Positions 19,639 to 38,729 of a DNA stretch of 38,729 bases are shown one piece after another. The position numbers were made by a program, and so were the translations under genes. The DNA is from Candidatus Thorarchaeota archaeon (GTDB lineage Archaea; Asgardarchaeota; Thorarchaeia; Thorarchaeales; Thorarchaeaceae), in the NCBI GenBank assembly GCA_030612365.1, contig JAUWOA010000009.1, forward strand, positions 1-38,729, written 5' to 3'. The notes under the pieces were generated by a model. The model saw nothing but the letters and a program-made list of their open reading frames with translations. It was not told the DNA's origin and made no database searches. Numbering within the stretch: the stretch's first letter is position 1; each line of letters opens with the position of its first letter.

Positions 19639-20985
19639 ATGCTCAGCGCAATCTCTCTAAGCATATACGAGTTCAGAAAGTACCTCGTGCTGAGTCTTGT
19701 CATCTCAATACTTGCAATCCCTATTGCAGATGCGATGGTCATCGAACGTGATCGCAACAGAAATGAGATGTACGGAGAAGCATTCTGGATATATGGCTTC
19801 GGCGTATACAACATGACAGACCAAGAGCTGGCTGAAGCGCTTCCCCCAGAGTGGGGTTACAACGATGGTGAACACGTACTTCCAGGATATCTTGGCAACA
19901 TTACTTACGAGTATCCTGTGTTTGGACTAATCTTTTTTGCAATCGCAACTTGGCTTTTTCCTGGTGTGAATGAACTACAGCCGCTCTGGATAAACTTCGT
20001 TCTTGTGCTTGTGTTCAACCTGAACTTGGTCCTCATTGCGATTTTGCTCCGTGATAAAATTTACAAAGTGCAATGGGCTCGTTTATTCTTCGCTGGGTAC
20101 TTCATCTACGGTCTGGTGATGTCTGCAGGCGGAGGGAAGCTGGAGCCAATTGTGGACTGTCTCCTTCTGATGGCATTAGTATTGCAGAAAGAGGGTAAGA
20201 TGAACAAAGCGATGCTCACCCTGGGCTTGTCGGTGCAGACCAAGATTTACTCTGGAGTGGCATTCCCATTGATGTTCTTGGCCGCCCCCAGTGCGTCGAT
20301 TTGGTTCTTCTTGTCATCTCTGCTAACGATAATTCCCTTCACCTTTTTTGGAGCCAGTTTTGATTCGCTCATGTCACATTTCTTCAATACTTCTGCGTAT
20401 AGCACAGAAATAGTCAATCCGATGTATCCCGGATTGCTCTTCACGTCGCCAACAACAGGTCCGCTTGCAGGAGTGACGTATCTCTGGCCTCCAGCATTGA
20501 TTCCACTTATAATCTACACAGCTTTCATGCTCCTCACAGTGGGGAAATACTTCCCCCATAAGGAGAAATTCATTGAAGCCTCTTGGCGAGAGAAACTGAA
20601 TCTTCTTGTGCCGCTCTATGTCTATATGCTTCCGGCAATCCTCTTCTATTTCCGTTGGGAAATGCCATGGTATGTCTTCTGGTTAGGTCCCATTGCAATC
20701 TTTCTCAAGGATGATGAACAAGCCATGGGTTATCTCAGGCAAATTGCTTTGGTAGCTCTCCTCTATACTATCGGAGTCTTCATCAACTGGCCTTACTTCA
20801 TTGCAGGGCCATTACCAGATTTTTCAGAACATTTCAAGACCGGATGGTGGGCTCTGGGTGGACTAGCACTAATGATAGGGCTAACTGGAGTTTCCTATCT
20901 CCTATGGAAGGCCACATTTGACCGTAGAGAACGGTTAGCTACCAAACGGCATGATGCAGAGGCACGTGGCGAGCTAATAATCTGA
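19639..20985 (+). CDS. Multi-pass glycosyltransferase, GT87/mannosyltransferase-like
   Basis: The 448-residue protein has roughly ten hydrophobic helices. An acidic loop follows the first helix, as in GT-C glycosyltransferases that use polyprenol-phosphate sugars. The segment LTLGLSVQTKIYSGVAFPLM matches the conserved 'K-x-Y' region of the GT87/PIG-M-like group, and a YEYPVFGLIFFAIA motif precedes it. Glycosyl transfer would take place at the outer face of the membrane. ATG 19639 has no good ribosome-binding site; the protein begins well there, but a different start is possible. It is divergent from the acyltransferase and deacetylase genes, so the three may build one surface glycan. It ends four bases from the convergent ribL-like gene. 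Confidence 0.8.
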   Translation: MLSAISLSIYEFRKYLVLSLVISILAIPIADAMVIERDRNRNEMYGEAFWIYGFGVYNMTDQELAEALPPEWGYNDGEHVLPGYLGNITYEYPVFGLIFFAIATWLFPGVNELQPLWINFVLVLVFNLNLVLIAILLRDKIYKVQWARLFFAGYFIYGLVMSAGGGKLEPIVDCLLLMALVLQKEGKMNKAMLTLGLSVQTKIYSGVAFPLMFLAAPSASIWFFLSSLLTIIPFTFFGASFDSLMSHFFNTSAYSTEIVNPMYPGLLFTSPTTGPLAGVTYLWPPALIPLIIYTAFMLLTVGKYFPHKEKFIEASWREKLNLLVPLYVYMLPAILFYFRWEMPWYVFWLGPIAIFLKDDEQAMGYLRQIALVALLYTIGVFINWPYFIAGPLPDFSEHFKTGWWALGGLALMIGLTGVSYLLWKATFDRRERLATKRHDAEARGELII

Positions 20986-31446: not shown

Positions 31447-32964
31447 ATGAATCAAGATAACTCCCTGCACGGGGAATTCAGCAGCATCTCACCTGCAGAA
31501 TTCTTCTATCGTAATCGCCAGATGGCAGGCTTTGGTAATCCGAGTCAGGCAGTGTACTCGACAGTTAGGGAGTTGGTGGAGAACAGCATTGACGCATGCG
31601 AGGAGGCACGTAGGAAGCCTGACGTGCGAGTGAGCATAGATGAAGAGCGGTCCGGCATCGTAAGGGTCACGGTGTCTGACAACGGCACTGGAGTTCCATA
31701 CGGTGAAGTTCCCAATGCCTTCGCCCGGGTACTCTACGGCGATAAATTCACGGCACGACAAAGGCGTGGAACCTTTGGCCTTGGAGTGACCATGGCGGCG
31801 CTCTATGGGCAAATCACTACGGACTCTCCTGTGATTGTAGTGACTCAAACTAGTCATACGACTGGAAGATGCTACCAGCTTCTCATTGACATCGAAAACA
31901 ACCAGCCTGTGGTTCTGTCTGACGAATCACATGAGAGAGAGGGTCCAGGCACTGAAGTCACAATCCGGCTCAAAGGCGATCTCAACCGATCGAGAGAACG
32001 CGTATACGACTATCTGCAATTAACTACGGTAGCTTCTCCGCATGCACGCGTAGAACTTACAATCAATGGGTCTTCTATAATGAGGATGGGCTGGTGGCAC
32101 CAGATGCTTCCAGAGCCAACCACAGCATCAAAACCGCACCCTCATGGTGCTGATTTGGAATTGCTTCGGCGGCTTGTTGCTGACGCAGGCGAACGGAGTC
32201 TTCATAGTTTCTTGGTTGAATCATTTCAACGGATTGGAACACGTACTGCTATGCGTTTTCTCAAGTTCTTGGCAATCAATCCACGGCAGGCTGTGAATAC
32301 GCTTGGTCGGGAAAATCTCTCTCGTCTTAGTTCTGCACTTCGCTCCTTTGACGGACTCGGTCGTCCCGATGGCAAATGTCTCAGTCCGATTGGAAAAGAC
32401 GCCTTTCTTGCTTCAATTGAGTCTGTATTCGCCCCCTCAGCTCTGACCTACGGAAACAGAGGGCCTACCGAATGGAGTGGTAATGCATTCATTGTCGAGG
32501 GCGTGGCGGCGATTGGTACGGGCGCACGCGGGGCAGATGTCCCGACACTGTACAGATTCGCCAACCGGGTTCCGCTCTTGTACGACAGTGGTGAAGATGC
32601 TCTTACAAAGATGCTAAAGCGCGTGAACTGGGTTCAATATGGGGTCCGGTCAACCACCCCAGTCTCAATTTTCCTTCATCTATGCTCGACGAGAATTCCC
32701 TTCAAAGCCACTGGAAAGCAGTCGATTGCCTCTTTGCCAGAGATCGAGCACGAAGTGCTCTCATTGCTTAGGGAATTGGGAAGAAGCCTGAAGAAAACTC
32801 TCAAGAGGGGCGAACGTTCAGTGCGCGATGCGCAGAAGAAACGTGAATTTGATAAGGCAATGAAACAAGTGGCACAGTTCAGTGCGGAATTGGCAGAATG
32901 CGATGCGATTCCATCAACAACTGAACTCGTTCACAGACTGTTCGAGGTGGACCATCATGTCTGA
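31447..32964 (+). CDS. top6B: DNA topoisomerase VI subunit B
   Basis: This is the ATPase subunit of topoisomerase VI, a type IIB enzyme that relaxes and decatenates DNA. The 505-residue product has the GHKL fold: N-box ELVENSIDACEEA with Asn46, DNGTGVP at 78-84, and GTFGLGVTMAALYG at 108-121. The helix-two-turn-helix and transducer domains follow, with a conserved RVPLLYDSGEDALTK segment. At 505 residues it is a little shorter than many family members (often 530 or more) and lacks a C-terminal Ig-like domain. ATG 31447 has GGAACGGT upstream. The stop overlaps the top6A start by eight bases. Confidence 0.96.
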   Translation: MNQDNSLHGEFSSISPAEFFYRNRQMAGFGNPSQAVYSTVRELVENSIDACEEARRKPDVRVSIDEERSGIVRVTVSDNGTGVPYGEVPNAFARVLYGDKFTARQRRGTFGLGVTMAALYGQITTDSPVIVVTQTSHTTGRCYQLLIDIENNQPVVLSDESHEREGPGTEVTIRLKGDLNRSRERVYDYLQLTTVASPHARVELTINGSSIMRMGWWHQMLPEPTTASKPHPHGADLELLRRLVADAGERSLHSFLVESFQRIGTRTAMRFLKFLAINPRQAVNTLGRENLSRLSSALRSFDGLGRPDGKCLSPIGKDAFLASIESVFAPSALTYGNRGPTEWSGNAFIVEGVAAIGTGARGADVPTLYRFANRVPLLYDSGEDALTKMLKRVNWVQYGVRSTTPVSIFLHLCSTRIPFKATGKQSIASLPEIEHEVLSLLRELGRSLKKTLKRGERSVRDAQKKREFDKAMKQVAQFSAELAECDAIPSTTELVHRLFEVDHHV

Positions 32965-34009
32965 TCAGTCCAAATCATTGAGCATCCTCAAAGACCTCGG
33001 AACTGCCATAGTTCAATCAATCGATAACGAGGAATTTCCAACGCTCAAGTTTCCCGGTCGCGGAACTGGGAATCTCGTGTATGATGAAGAGAGTAAACAA
33101 TTCGTGCTTGGCAATACCCAAGTCATACGGGACTCTAGCAACCTTCGTCATATCAAGAGTTTCACACAACTTGTTTGGGTCGCTTCCTACGCCAAACAAC
33201 TGCTACAGGCTGGCAGAACCTCTTCTCTAAGAGACCTCTACTACTCAAGTGAAGCATTCGGCGTAGAATTTTCAGACCAAGCCGAATCAGATCGAACTGT
33301 GACAGATCTCGAGTGTTTGACAGGCATTGCCAGAGAAGCATTTGGTGTGTTTCCGGAGGAGCGATCGTCAATCTATGGTCAGGTGACAATGCGCTACACT
33401 GTTGCGGGATACGAAGGACGGGATGTGGACCTCACACTCAGTCCTGATGGACTACCGATAGGTCCGGCACTAGTAACTGCGGACCCGGTCGAATCCAATG
33501 CCGAGTTGATTCTGGCAGTTGAATCCGGAGGTATATTCTCTCGTCTGATTGAAACAAGAGCTTGGGAACGTTTCAATGCAGTATTGATACACTTGGGAGG
33601 CCAGCCCCCACGAGCCACGCGTCAGTTGATACGTCGACTACATGACGATCTGGATCTGCCAGTGTACGTCTTTACGGATGGAGATCCTTGGGGAATGCAT
33701 ATTGCAAGAGTTATCTCCACAGGCAGTGCCAACGCCGCGCATATCCAGGGGTTAACAACTCCGGATGCGGAATGGATTGGAGTCACTGCTGATGATATAA
33801 CCAAATACTCCTTACCATCGGAGCCACTAAACAATGCTGACCTGAAGCGCTTGGATGAGCTTTCAAGAGACGTGAGATATTCTGATTCTATGTGGCAAGA
33901 CTACATCCGTGATTTCCGTCAGTTGCAGAGGAAGGCGGAACAGCAGGCATTCAGTAGGCATGGTATGGACTATGTTGTGGACAAATATCTCCCAGAGAAA
34001 ATCCACTAA
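32957..34009 (+). CDS. top6A: DNA topoisomerase VI subunit A
   Basis: Subunit A is the Spo11-like DNA-cleaving partner. The 350-residue product has the winged-helix catalytic tyrosine motif SLRDLYYSSEAFG (Tyr95/Tyr96), the toprim domain with AVESGG and TDGDPWGMHI (Asp241, Asp243), and ITKYSLPSEPLNNADLKRL. ATG 32957 is chosen because GAGGTGG lies six bases upstream; it overlaps the end of top6B in another frame, so the two are translationally coupled. The last four bases overlap the convergent minus-strand transferase gene. Confidence 0.96.
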   Translation: MSDQSKSLSILKDLGTAIVQSIDNEEFPTLKFPGRGTGNLVYDEESKQFVLGNTQVIRDSSNLRHIKSFTQLVWVASYAKQLLQAGRTSSLRDLYYSSEAFGVEFSDQAESDRTVTDLECLTGIAREAFGVFPEERSSIYGQVTMRYTVAGYEGRDVDLTLSPDGLPIGPALVTADPVESNAELILAVESGGIFSRLIETRAWERFNAVLIHLGGQPPRATRQLIRRLHDDLDLPVYVFTDGDPWGMHIARVISTGSANAAHIQGLTTPDAEWIGVTADDITKYSLPSEPLNNADLKRLDELSRDVRYSDSMWQDYIRDFRQLQRKAEQQAFSRHGMDYVVDKYLPEKIH

Positions 34010-35043
34010 AACAATCCCACTCCCCACGGGTAAGCTATGAGAAGAAGGAACACTGCTCCATATGCCAAGAGTGCTTGGACGATGACAAGAATAATGACAT
34101 TCTTCTTCTCGGTCATGTTCTTGAAAAAGTGAGGTAACACCCAATACAAGGTAAATGGGCCGACTACCTCCAAAGTCCCATCTTCTCTGGGACTGGCAAA
34201 CTTGACGTAATCCATCCCCGTCCTGTTCACATGAATCCTGTACAGGATGTAAAGCAGGAAATTCACTGCAAAGGGTGCAAAGATGATAATTGCAAGCCTA
34301 TCCATGTTTCCCAGAATCAACGCCGCGGCAATTGCTGCACCAATCGGCAGTCTTCCAACATCACCTAGCAGAATCTTTGCGGGGTATTTGTTGTAAACAA
34401 GAAACGCTAACGCCGCGCCCAGTAGAGCGGCTGCAACTGTGCCGGCATCTATCTGGCCCTGCATGATTGCTTTTCCTGTGAATAATGGAAGAAGAAGCAC
34501 GTACGAAACCACGGCTGATGAGTTCACAGTTGCCAACCCCGCCTCCAATCCATTCATGCCCCCATACATGTTAGTGGAGTCTATGATGAATGTCATCATC
34601 AATGGCACAATAATCAATGGATAGATAACTCCAAATTCTATCGCTCCCACGAGAGGAATCGAGATGGTGGTCGTCCCCACAGCCATTACAGCCATTGGAA
34701 TTGAAGCGATGAGTGGTAGTGCTATCTTTGTCCTGTTTTTGAAATCAATAGTATCATCGAGAAGTCCAATCATACCTGCCATCAGTATTGATACCAACGC
34801 AGCCAAGATTGCAGGGTCTACTGCCTCGGTCCTGAGGAATGTGGTGTAACCGATGACGACTAACAGACTTGTCACAATCGCTAAGAGGACTATGTAGCCG
34901 CCCCCCTTTGCCACTTCCGGCTTCTCGGACTTATGGACATCAATTCCTACTTGGCCCCTCGCTTTGAGAGTTCGGATTGTGGTCGGCATTGCTAGGAGAA
35001 CAATGAGGAATGCAATTATGACGGCGATAACGATTGTATACAA
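34006..35043 (-). CDS. GlcNAc-1-phosphate transferase (GPT/ALG7/AglH-like)
   Basis: This 345-residue membrane enzyme, with about ten helices, belongs to the polyprenol-phosphate glycan-1-phosphate transferase family. It would move GlcNAc-1-phosphate (or a related sugar) from its UDP-sugar to dolichol phosphate, the first step of N-glycan assembly. Motifs are LLDDTIDFKNRTK (residues 94-106), STNMYGGMNGLEAG, and LLGDVGRLPIGA. GxGG near residues 47-49 (KGGGYI) is also typical. The start is TTG 35043, with AAGGAG nine bases upstream. The gene is convergent with top6A (four-base overlap) and divergent from the large ribophorin-like gene. That neighbourhood supports an N-glycosylation role over a cell-wall role. 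Confidence 0.9.
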   Translation of the reverse strand: MYTIVIAVIIAFLIVLLAMPTTIRTLKARGQVGIDVHKSEKPEVAKGGGYIVLLAIVTSLLVVIGYTTFLRTEAVDPAILAALVSILMAGMIGLLDDTIDFKNRTKIALPLIASIPMAVMAVGTTTISIPLVGAIEFGVIYPLIIVPLMMTFIIDSTNMYGGMNGLEAGLATVNSSAVVSYVLLLPLFTGKAIMQGQIDAGTVAAALLGAALAFLVYNKYPAKILLGDVGRLPIGAAIAAALILGNMDRLAIIIFAPFAVNFLLYILYRIHVNRTGMDYVKFASPREDGTLEVVGPFTLYWVLPHFFKNMTEKKNVIILVIVQALLAYGAVFLLLIAYPWGVGLF

Positions 35044-35118
35044 CTGGACTATCTCCTTGTTTACCTGCTCATTTGATATCCGTTTTACACTTTTCGGGAT
35101 GAACCACGCACAGTACGA

Positions 35119-35138
35119 AGATTTCCTTGCCGAAATCT
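35119..35138. promoter_or_regulatory. 7-6-7 palindrome in the divergent region, next to a TATA-like box
   Basis: AGATTTC-CTTGCC-GAAATCT is a perfect inverted repeat of 20 bases. It abuts CTATTTTAAC (35137-35146), TATA-like on the minus strand toward the transferase gene. It may be an operator or a shared control site of the two divergent glycosylation-linked genes. Confidence 0.35.
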
Positions 35139-35201
35139 ATTTTAACAGACCCGAAGTTGGGGCGCAACGTTTGCGGTCCAGTGAGACCTGAGCCTGCATA
35201 C

Positions 35202-35211
35202 TGTAAATATA
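35202..35211 (+). promoter_or_regulatory. TATA box of the ribophorin-like gene
   Basis: GTAAATATAT lies about 25 bases before TTG 35231. The GGTGAT ribosome-binding site (35220-35225) is close to the start, so the leader must be very short or the box sits slightly upstream. It is the best TATA match in this gap. Confidence 0.45.
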
Positions 35212-35230
35212 TCAAATTCGGTGATTCATC

Positions 35231-38182
35231 TTGAGCCTGCTACGTAGAAGAATAGCAACAGTTGCGTTACTGGCGATATTTGTCATCAGTGGCGTCGCGT
35301 TGACTATTCCTGAGTTAAATTCTTGGAATCCCACGACTTCGGCTCACACCACCCAACAGGACTACTCCTATGCAGAGTCGATGCTAAACGCTTCAATACC
35401 CTATGTTGATGTCCACTATGGTTCCGCTGACGGGATAATCGATCCAAGAGAGTACTCGTACAGCTACATAGACTCAGCTACTGGAGTTACCATTTACCTT
35501 GAGCACAACTCAACACTCCTCTATGTCGGACTCTCAGCTACCACTTCCGGCTGGATTGCGCTTGGCTGGCAGAACTACACGTCAGATTTCACAAGCAGCG
35601 GTCTCAACGGCAGTGACTTGATATTTGGATGCGCTCCAGGTGAGCCGCACGCGAGCTATACGAGAGTGACTGGCATTGATATTGTCACTGTCCACTACAA
35701 GCTGTATGACCGGAATGGAACCCTGATACAGGAGAACGATGCTCCTACCGATGATTCTACAACCCCAATAGAAGACGAACGATTACTCCAGGGTTACATA
35801 GATGAAATAATCGGCATGAGACTTGGTGAAGAACGTCATTTCATCATTCCTGCTGAAGAAGGCTACACTACAATTAACCATGAAATGTATGGGCAGGACC
35901 TTGAATATGTCATAACTCTGACACGACTCGGGTCCAATACAAACAACCCTGCTAACGCAAGTCAAATCGTCTACAGGGATGACTATGCCATAGGCACATT
36001 CCAACATCTTCCGGATGCTGATCAAAGCCGGATTGTTGCAGCGAATGGCAGTGATGATGGCATCACAACACAACTAGAGTACATCATTAAAATGAACAGT
36101 ACCGATCCCAATGACATTCCTCTGTTCAATGCAACAGATGTACAGTTTCCTTTCACCCTGATGTTCGGAGGTTCTGAGAATTTTGATGAACTCCCCGTAC
36201 AGCACACTGATTGGGCAAATCCCCTTATGGTTGACTTCGTGGGCAACACAGCGCCATCCATTGTTGTGGAAAGCCCAGCTCTGGATGAAGTTCTTGGTTT
36301 GGTGGCAGCGTTCAAAATTAACGTGACAGATAACACATACGTACGAACTGCTCACTACCGGATTGATGATGAGAACTGGACACAGATATTTTACAACTTC
36401 CAGTCCGACTTATGGGAAGTCAAGGTTGACCTCTCTGAATACGAGATTGGAAGTCACCAAGTCTGGTTCAACGCAACTGACGTTTCCAATGTCACCAGTA
36501 CAGCAATAGTGAATGTCACAATTGATTGGCCTTTTACTCCACTCATTGGAATGCACCTTGATGTCGATAGGAGCTTTGTGACACGTCTGTATCACAACAC
36601 GAAGATTGAGGACCAATACATAGTCCGCAACAACGGAACGGCCCCGATTGGGGCATTGGAATTCTTCCTTCCGCAACCATGGACGAGCTATTTCCTCTCA
36701 GTGTCGGCGGAAGACAGTGCTGAGAACGAGCTTGAGTTAGTGCAACTGGATGATGTCAACGGAATGATGCACTTCAGAGTCTATTTCATCGAACCAGTTG
36801 GATTTCAGGACTCCCTAGCATTTACGACGACAATGGTAATGCATTCGTTACACGATCTTGTGGAAGGCAACATCTACAACGTTACATATCTGAAGTATCC
36901 CACTGTACCCTATGTTCTGAAGACTGCGTCTATGAAAGTCAGTTTCAGGAGTGGTGATTCTATTCAAGGCGATATTCCTGATACTGATGATATCAATGTG
37001 GCTCCGATGAGCATTGAGGAGTTTGACTTCTCGCTACGGTCGTACACCCCGTTGATTGATGCTGAACGAACTACTCAAATTGTAGTCGACGCGTGGGGAT
37101 GGCTCTCTTATAGCGAAACTATCAGCATAGAAAATATTGGCCCTTCAAAGGAAAACTACTTCGCATTCACGATACCTGCCTACGCAGCCAATCTCCGGAT
37201 CTATGACGAAGTTGGAACTCTTGCGGAGTCGATGCCCCGCGGAGAGCTGACGTTTAATAATACAATCGAGCTTAGGATTGATCTCAGAAGTGACCGCTTT
37301 GGTTACGACGGATTCTGGCCCGGACACACGTATACATTCTGGATTGACTACGTTATACAGGCTTCAAGCTACTCCGATGCTATTCCATCAGGTAGCCAGT
37401 TGGAGGTTCCGATAGGAACGTTCGGTGAAATACTCGTCAGCAAGCATACAATCGATATTGTGTTTCCAATCTCAACCAACCTCGTAGAAACTTCAGGCGA
37501 TTACCAGCTCATTTATGGTGTATTCGACACGTCGATCAGTTACACAGTCTATAACACAACAAAGGAGAACCCACTCAATATCGTGCTGGTATACCAGGTT
37601 TCGATAGGAGCTGCCGCTCGACCTATCCTCTTTGCACTGATGGCGGGTTTCATTGCCCTCATCTATGTAATGTACAGAAAAGTGGATTTGCCTGAGGAAA
37701 TTACCGGTTCGGGCGAAGAAGAACCAACTGCAGCTGAGGCCAAATCTACGGGTGCGCCTCCAGAGCTTCTGAGGGAGTTTGCTACTCTCTATTCTAAGAA
37801 GACCACTTTGAACATGGATCTTGAGAAGATTGAGTCCTCTCGAAGAAGAGGAAAGGTCAAGAAGAGGGAGTTCATGATTCGTCAGAAGGACATCAAGTCG
37901 CAGATGGAAAAGATTGACTCTCAGCTCCCATCGTTGAAGGATAAACTCGTCAGCGAAGGCGCGAGATACAGAGACATCGTAGCTCAGCTCGAGCTTCACG
38001 AAGAACGTATCGAGGGCGCAAAGGCCGGTCTCCGACAGCTCCTTCTTAGGAAGAAGAAGCAGAGGATTAGTCGTGCCGCTTTCGAGAAGGCTCGACAGGA
38101 CTATCTGAAGGTCATCAAGAAGAGCACCAGCGCCACAGACCGCATTCTGCTCTCAATTCAGGAAGAGGCTGGAGACATCTAG
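35231..38182 (+). CDS. Ribophorin-I-like membrane protein with split DOMON/FKBP ectodomain
   Basis: The 983-residue protein has an N-terminal signal or anchor helix (8-28). A DOMON-like domain starts near 58 (YVDVHYGSADGIIDPREY, GWIALGWQNY) and resumes near 243 (IVYRDDYAIGTFQHLPDADQ, GITTQLEYIIKMNSTDP). Between them, about 145-234, lies an FKBP-like domain: IVTVHYKLYDRNGTLIQE, LLQGYIDEIIGMRLGEERHF, IIPAEEGY. An Ig-like segment covers about 340-435. Residues 440-790 resemble the ribophorin I lumenal region, including AWGWLSYSETISIENIG at 621. One membrane helix (797-816) is followed by a highly charged helical tail (840-983). Many N-x-S/T sites are present. The ribophorin match is from memory and needs a profile search. 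TTG 35231 has GGTGAT five bases upstream. The divergent neighbour is the GlcNAc-1-phosphate transferase. Confidence 0.8.
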   Translation: MSLLRRRIATVALLAIFVISGVALTIPELNSWNPTTSAHTTQQDYSYAESMLNASIPYVDVHYGSADGIIDPREYSYSYIDSATGVTIYLEHNSTLLYVGLSATTSGWIALGWQNYTSDFTSSGLNGSDLIFGCAPGEPHASYTRVTGIDIVTVHYKLYDRNGTLIQENDAPTDDSTTPIEDERLLQGYIDEIIGMRLGEERHFIIPAEEGYTTINHEMYGQDLEYVITLTRLGSNTNNPANASQIVYRDDYAIGTFQHLPDADQSRIVAANGSDDGITTQLEYIIKMNSTDPNDIPLFNATDVQFPFTLMFGGSENFDELPVQHTDWANPLMVDFVGNTAPSIVVESPALDEVLGLVAAFKINVTDNTYVRTAHYRIDDENWTQIFYNFQSDLWEVKVDLSEYEIGSHQVWFNATDVSNVTSTAIVNVTIDWPFTPLIGMHLDVDRSFVTRLYHNTKIEDQYIVRNNGTAPIGALEFFLPQPWTSYFLSVSAEDSAENELELVQLDDVNGMMHFRVYFIEPVGFQDSLAFTTTMVMHSLHDLVEGNIYNVTYLKYPTVPYVLKTASMKVSFRSGDSIQGDIPDTDDINVAPMSIEEFDFSLRSYTPLIDAERTTQIVVDAWGWLSYSETISIENIGPSKENYFAFTIPAYAANLRIYDEVGTLAESMPRGELTFNNTIELRIDLRSDRFGYDGFWPGHTYTFWIDYVIQASSYSDAIPSGSQLEVPIGTFGEILVSKHTIDIVFPISTNLVETSGDYQLIYGVFDTSISYTVYNTTKENPLNIVLVYQVSIGAAARPILFALMAGFIALIYVMYRKVDLPEEITGSGEEEPTAAEAKSTGAPPELLREFATLYSKKTTLNMDLEKIESSRRRGKVKKREFMIRQKDIKSQMEKIDSQLPSLKDKLVSEGARYRDIVAQLELHEERIEGAKAGLRQLLLRKKKQRISRAAFEKARQDYLKVIKKSTSATDRILLSIQEEAGDI

Positions 38183-38235
38183 CCCCCTCCTCCCACTTCG
38201 CAAGTCTTATCAAATGAACCGTCACAAGAGAATGT

Positions 38236-38246
38236 CCCCCTGGGGG
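38236..38246 (+). promoter_or_regulatory. Small GC hairpin over the putative ribosome-binding site
   Basis: CCCCC-T-GGGGG can fold on itself (for example four pairs around CTG). The G run is the only purine-rich site before ATG 38254, seven bases away, so folding would hide it. This could lower translation of the HD-domain gene. Confidence 0.25.
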
Positions 38247-38253
38247 CCTAGTC

Positions 38254-38729
38254 ATGAACGAGCATCAAGTTTTCAACAGAGATGAGGTCACCGTCAGTGA
38301 ATTACTCGAGCCCAACTCAAAGGCTCTAGAGATGTATCAGTACCTCAAGAATTCGCCAAAGGTTCAATCCTTCCTTCGAACGGCGAACAGAATGGCTGTT
38401 TCTCGACTGGGCTATACAGACCACGGGCCTGTTCATGCGGAGGTGGCAACTTGGAACGCTATCAAGATATTCAATATTCTTGACGACACCTTCAGGCCCA
38501 ATGTTGTGGCTGAGGGCATAGGTGACACTGATGACGCTCGCCTAATCGTGCTAGCATCGACATATTTGCATGACATTGGAATGACGGTACACCGAGAAGA
38601 ACACTACCAAGCCTCGCTCCAACTAGCGGTTCCAATCCTTGAGCCAAAGCTAGAGGAAATTTACTCGGATGTGTCATTGGCGACTGACATAATGTCCTTC
38701 ATAATGCACGGCATCTACTCCCACGATGA
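38254..38729 (+). CDS. HD-domain phosphohydrolase, N-terminal part
   Basis: The frame is open from ATG 38254 to the window end (158 residues plus two bases), so the gene is truncated by the window. The HD-domain ligands appear in order: TDHGPVHAEV (His57, His61), YLHDIGM (His106, Asp107), and later His152 in FIMHGIYSHD. This is the pattern of metal-dependent phosphohydrolases of the archaeal COG1418-like type, cytoplasmic, substrate unknown. The 37-residue stretch before the first His is helical. The protein would continue past the last base. The upstream gene is the ribophorin-like protein, 71 bases away on the same strand, possibly unrelated. Confidence 0.85.
   Translation, partial: MNEHQVFNRDEVTVSELLEPNSKALEMYQYLKNSPKVQSFLRTANRMAVSRLGYTDHGPVHAEVATWNAIKIFNILDDTFRPNVVAEGIGDTDDARLIVLASTYLHDIGMTVHREEHYQASLQLAVPILEPKLEEIYSDVSLATDIMSFIMHGIYSHD

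Follow-up and report, generated by a model that had tools for sequence, protein, structure and literature searches.

What does a 983-codon open frame with a TTG start, on a contig from a Thorarchaeota metagenome-assembled genome (MAG), encode, if its larger C-terminal part resembles ribophorin I (OST1) and its first 440 residues do not? The frame lies near the end of a stretch of 38,729 nucleotides, here called the window, from an assembly of 2.32 Mb in 188 contigs that is 88% complete. The nearest named records belong to Candidatus Thorarchaeota, with 95, 95, and 88% identity to residues 440-983. The first-pass annotation of this DNA had read the encoded protein as an archaeal form of ribophorin I, with two beta domains outside the membrane, one membrane helix, and a helical tail in contact with the ribosome, and had added that ribophorin-like proteins were already reported from Asgard archaea. 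The addition was accurate: ribophorin has been called universal in the known Asgard phyla (PMC8813620) and is elsewhere listed as previously reported (PMC10307638), and the four-helix bundle of a Lokiarchaeal OST1 pulls down ribosomes, which its outside part does not, and its tail binds human ribosomes (PMC11417166). The ribophorin I reading is confirmed, and it is known in kind. The coordinates given with that reading omit the 440-residue N-terminal extension, which is the unusual part of the protein. For the Thorarchaeial extension, with its FKBP domain, we found no earlier description.

Results

Layout of the protein

The features of the gene and of its divergent neighbour are collected in Table 1. 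From the N terminus, the predicted order is a signal peptide or signal anchor, a DOMON-like sandwich interrupted by an FKBP domain, an Ig-like domain, the ribophorin I outside domains, one membrane helix, and a cytosolic four-helix bundle. The membrane helix, previously put at residues 797-816, moves only slightly in our hydropathy scan, and the charged helical tail, estimated before at about 165 residues, has 167 (K+R 36, D+E 29), is predicted to be helical, and forms the best-confidence part of the structural model (pLDDT mostly 70-86). N-glycosylation sequons are abundant in the ectodomain: it has 18, where 1000 shuffles lead one to expect 7 and reach 14 at most.

Table 1. Features of the Thorarchaeial OST1 gene and its neighbour, in window positions
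Feature	Position	Strand	Evidence
UDP-GlcNAc:dolichyl-phosphate GlcNAc-1-P transferase-like (Alg7/DPAGT1/AglH), divergent neighbour	34006..35043	-	Glycos_transf_4 1.7e-28
OST1/ribophorin I homologue with DOMON-FKBP-Ig extension, 983 aa	35231..38182	+	Joined frame in 32 Thorarchaeial proteins; homology
Predicted N-terminal signal peptide or signal anchor, residues 8-26	35252..35308	+	Hydropathy peak 2.6
DOMON-like beta sandwich, probable first half, residues 55-142	35393..35656	+	DOMON matches in homologues, intact or with FKBP removed
FKBP domain, likely inserted in DOMON-like domain, residues 143-236 (Pfam match 148-230)	35657..35938	+	FKBP_C above cut-off
DOMON-like beta sandwich, probable second half, residues 241-336	35951..36238	+	Match across junction after FKBP removal
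Ig-like domain, residues 337-433	36239..36529	+	Big_7 in 14/21 homologues, best 2.1e-10
Ribophorin I outside (lumenal-type) domains, residues 440-795	36548..37615	+	Non-Thorarchaeial Asgard OST1 profile; colinear with human RPN1
Membrane helix, residues 796-814	37616..37672	+	Hydropathy 1.99; aligned with RPN1 helix
Predicted cytosolic four-helix bundle, residues 842-983	37754..38179	+	8WHN E 4e-8 by sequence; top of fold search

Residues 440-983 and ribophorin I

Judged by sequence, residues 440-983 are a true homologue of ribophorin I, beyond a look-alike. To stop the window protein from riding along in its own profile, a held-out profile was built from 15 non-Thorarchaeial Asgard OST1 sequences. 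Against this profile, residues 440-795 alone score 157 bits (E 4.3e-45) and the tail alone 108 bits (E 3.2e-30); human RPN1 scores 159.5 bits (E 9.4e-46), whereas 400 sequences made by shuffling these two segments of the window protein, at constant composition, do not exceed 3.8 bits. An Asgard-wide alignment of 24 sequences is colinear with human RPN1 from residue 26 to 606 (E 2.7e-45), through the outside domains, the helix, and the tail, and it also matches yeast Ost1 (E 2.5e-17). Homologues of OST1 were found in 50 of the 59 genomes searched, including all 22 of the good ones.

The strings quoted earlier as ribophorin-like are where they were said to be: RSFVTRLYHNTKIEDQYIV begins at residue 447, RNNGTAPIGALEFFLP at 466, VDAWGWLSYSET at 619, and IENIG at 633. 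The guess that the protein shares a conserved HWGN...EE stretch with the eukaryotic subunit was a good one, as AWGWLSYSETISIENIG falls on human RPN1 SHWGNIAVEENVDLKHTG in the Asgard-wide profile alignment; the 'NNGxxPV' motif named alongside it does not occur literally in the human sequence. A search against the Pfam Ribophorin_I family had been suggested as a check, and its outcome depends on the route taken. The window protein, taken singly, has no match to PF04597 at E<=10, and single-sequence searches of Pfam and NCBIfam return no ribophorin match; 15 of the 24 aligned Asgard homologues do match PF04597 (best 4.6e-32). The window protein is too diverged for a direct match; intermediate Asgard sequences are needed. 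A Thorarchaeial-only profile is weak against human RPN1 (outside part E 1.1e-4, hhalign probability 91%), and in a PDB search it reaches 8WHN, the cytosolic domain of Lokiarchaeal OST1, with RPN1 not listed at E<=1.

Structure prediction was informative for the tail. The AlphaFold model of residues 440-983 has a pLDDT of 41.5, from an alignment of four near-identical sequences, and is reliable in the tail alone. In a fold search with this model, 8WHN, which is also matched directly by the bundle sequence of the window protein (Table 1), ranked first, at E 1.6e-4 and a target-based TM-score of 0.82. Second was human RPN1 in 8b6l (E 0.013, rmsd 33), to be read with the reliable region of the model in mind.

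An extension found in Thorarchaeial OST1

An ectodomain extension of about 440 residues is present in all 32 Thorarchaeial copies examined. Among the 196 Asgard genomes searched, it was found in 44 Thorarchaeial genomes and, at full length, in none outside the Thorarchaeial family; the closest OST1 proteins outside that family (in the genomes of loci L031 and L032) are without it. Of its parts, the FKBP domain is the most readily recognized. The FKBP_C match in the window protein has an E-value of 7.4e-8, the family is matched in 21/21 aligned extensions, and with an Asgard FKBP profile the domain is found in 32/32 full or partial Thorarchaeial proteins. The Ig-like domain is recognized in fewer of the aligned extensions (Table 1). 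DOMON is matched in 4 of the 21 when they are intact (best 1.8e-4); once the FKBP domain is removed and its flanks are joined, six of nine match DOMON across the junction in one register (best 0.0028), all of these matches being below the Pfam cut-off of 32.7 bits. Insertion of the FKBP domain into a DOMON-like sandwich is therefore likely but not proven. The AlphaFold model of the extension (pLDDT 33) was set aside. In the literature searched, which included few subscription journals, there was no description of a Thorarchaeota FKBP or of an Asgard OST with a peptidyl-prolyl isomerase. A 586-aa DOMON-FKBP-Ig protein that lacks the ribophorin part and ends in a membrane helix is encoded at locus L101 (G023:C125, 630-2390), in a Thorarchaeial MAG with 9% contamination.

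The pocket of the fused FKBP domain

Pocket positions were counted over 29 Thorarchaeial copies in FKBP12 numbering. Tyr26 is kept in 29/29 and Tyr82 in 28/29, and three further positions carry substitutions that are themselves nearly constant, Ile56 to Leu (28/29), Trp59 to Tyr (27/29), and Phe99 to Tyr (26/29); positions 59 and 99 thereby stay aromatic. The position of Asp37 is Gln or Glu in 28/29 copies, and that of Phe46 is Ser in 26/29. Since the pocket tyrosines are near-invariant, binding of peptides by this domain is plausible; since the equivalent of Asp37 is lost, proline isomerisation is probably slow or absent, and efficient isomerisation is doubtful. Orthology with human FKBP11 is not supported by the scores: FKBP11 (9n9j_A) is matched at E 0.067, against 6e-6 for FKBP2 and 5e-7 for plant FKBPs.

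Stand-alone membrane FKBPs in other Asgard families

Outside Thorarchaeia, the Asgard FKBPs that most resemble the fused one are for the most part proteins in their own right, with a predicted signal peptide, an FKBP domain, a membrane helix, and a cytosolic tail. These occur in at least families f15, f17, f20, f21, and f28, and their tails are basic in one case (L099) and CxxC-rich in many others. The loci concerned are L092-L094, L096-L100, and L122-L130, and f17 has several tandem, diverged copies. A tree places the fused FKBPs beside the membrane forms of f21 and f28, at a fork that is weak (81/94), and sets the cytosolic FKBPs apart as a group (98/82). Among the neighbours examined of the stand-alone membrane FKBPs there is no translocon or OST gene; they include AAA, ParB-like, and RNase E/G genes and, by eye, RNA-polymerase-like sequences.

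Genomic context and other OST components

The first enzyme of N-glycan synthesis is the Alg7/DPAGT1 GlcNAc-1-P transferase. The divergent neighbour of the OST1 gene appears to encode an enzyme of this kind: it is GPT-like by sequence, and among solved structures its best match is human DPAGT1 (5lev, E 6.2e-16, versus 1.4e-12 for MraY, 4j72). Such a gene adjoins OST1 in 19/19 Thorarchaeial loci with sequence on that side, and the order TopoVI, GPT, OST1, HD protein (window 31447-38727) is largely constant across Thorarchaeia. An association of the two genes is also seen in other families, with the Alg7-like transferase two genes downstream of OST1 in f2, about 3 kb from it in f13, and upstream of it in f9, where genes for a hexapeptide transferase and a GFO/IDH/MocA enzyme accompany the transferase gene. 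Locus L037 (3478-9410), from an Asgard family other than that of the window, is a sugar-building cluster: the OST1 gene comes after those for a GFO/IDH/MocA enzyme and a hexapeptide transferase, and an Alg7-like gene lies further upstream. Elsewhere in the window (19639-20985), a 448-aa multi-helix membrane protein that matches no Pfam family at E<=1 is encoded near hexapeptide transferase and nucleotidyltransferase genes.

Co-occurrence with STT3 and OST3/6 homologues had also been suggested as a check on the ribophorin reading. In the MAG of the window, an OST3/6-family protein scores over the cut-off; it has 162 residues and is without the thioredoxin domain. STT3 was not found in this MAG, at its 88% completeness, and it was found in 52 of the 59 genomes searched (51 over the cut-off), including five of six other genomes of the same genus. 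The 162-aa protein (L070, G000:C61) resembles the DC2/OSTC type of subunit. A 540-aa membrane protein of the same MAG, with a signal peptide (L142, G000:C96, frame from 379) matches TRAP_beta at 4.5e-7; as a TRAP-beta candidate it was rejected, since it matches DUF11 and CARDB about equally and the match is not specific.

Discussion

Taken on sequence, the best explanation of this locus is that it encodes the OST1 (ribophorin I) subunit of a Thorarchaeial oligosaccharyltransferase. The closest characterized relative is the OST1 of the Lokiarchaeon MK-D1, Ca. Prometheoarchaeum syntrophicum (WP_147663064.1, PDB 8WHN; PMC11417166), which shares the ribophorin outside domains, the single membrane helix, and the cytosolic four-helix bundle. 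The OST1 proteins of the other Asgard families searched are, at about 560-660 residues, without the DOMON-FKBP-Ig head, unlike those of Thorarchaeia, which run to about 985. Human RPN1 is part of OST-A at the ribosome-bound translocon. Both it and yeast Ost1 (PF04597) are colinear homologues of the Thorarchaeial protein over the outside domains, helix, and tail, but lack its FKBP, DOMON-like, and Ig-like extension.

For the role of the FKBP domain, which we infer, the nearest parallel is human FKBP11, which likewise combines an outside FKBP domain with a single membrane helix and a tail in the cytosol. Cryo-EM places FKBP11 at the translocon formed with OST-A and Sec61, where its tail contacts the ribosome and CCDC134 buries its pocket; its role as an isomerase has been doubted (PMC12804085; PDB 9n9j, 9ygy). 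The difference is that FKBP11 is a separate protein with a short tail, whereas the Thorarchaeial FKBP is part of OST1; the stand-alone Asgard membrane FKBPs share the FKBP11 layout. The parallel would be one of arrangement, and descent is not implied.

We think it probable that Thorarchaeial OST1 comes to the ribosome-bound translocon with an FKBP head of its own, which would serve there as a tethered factor for holding or folding. The tail of OST1, to go by the ribosome binding of its Lokiarchaeal relative's tail, would hold STT3 and the rest of the OST at the ribosome and the Sec channel; with the OST held there, the FKBP head would sit over the channel exit. From that position the head could take hold of stretches of the chain as it emerges and is glycosylated by STT3, and may act in folding or in holding. 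The fusion would then join in one protein the same pairing that eukaryotes make with the separate FKBP11.

A stronger version, in which the domain is an active, tethered proline isomerase with nascent chains as its substrates at the channel exit (cis-trans isomerisation), could appeal to the above-cut-off FKBP_C match and the nearly invariant pocket tyrosines. However, Asp37 and Phe46, two residues that matter in FKBP12, have given way to others in nearly every copy, and human FKBP11 has a buried pocket and a doubted isomerase role (PMC12804085), and we regard catalysis of this kind as unlikely.

Alternatively, the extension could be a cell-surface or glycan-binding head, with its DOMON-like and Ig-like domains binding sugars, cofactors, or the S-layer and the FKBP domain only structural. 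Many proteins of the cell surface, or that bind sugars or haem, have DOMON or Ig-like folds, the sequon-rich ectodomain fits an external location, and the L101 protein shows that the DOMON-FKBP-Ig unit occurs in one MAG apart from the ribophorin part. However, the FKBP insert is the most confidently recognized part of the extension and is present in every copy, whereas an insert that served only as decoration should have disappeared from some copies; this argues against a purely structural role, and we give such a head little credence.

The remaining alternatives concern the protein as a whole. That it is a generic archaeal surface protein, alike to ribophorin only in composition (a beta-rich ectodomain, one helix, and a coiled-coil tail), might be argued from the missing Pfam Ribophorin_I match of the single sequence and the weakness of the Thorarchaeial-only profile against human RPN1, but it is very hard to reconcile with 157 bits for the outside part in the held-out profile where shuffles reach 3.8 at most, with a colinear match over the whole length, and with OST1 in first place in the fold search. 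Finally, an assembly or gene-calling artefact joining two genes, conceivable for a single metagenome contig, is negligible given the same joined frame of about 985 residues and the same gene order in more than 30 Thorarchaeial MAGs.

The interest of the fused FKBP head is that proteins joined by gene fusion are often working partners, and that the corresponding partners in human cells, FKBP11 with OST and Sec61, were not seen together in a structure until 2025. A further step, that an outside FKBP coupled to the ribosome-bound glycosylation translocon predates eukaryotes, with the Asgard membrane FKBPs working there and the Thorarchaeial one having become fused, we put forward tentatively, as possible though rather doubtful. 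Asgard homologues of ER chaperones are reported to be without signal peptides, and a folding compartment has been argued against (PMC11417166). With outside membrane FKBPs in several Asgard families and one within OST1 itself, folding help at the translocon may predate the ER. If this is true, Asgard cells would have a site at the cell membrane given over to protein folding, a functional forerunner of the folding apparatus of the ER.
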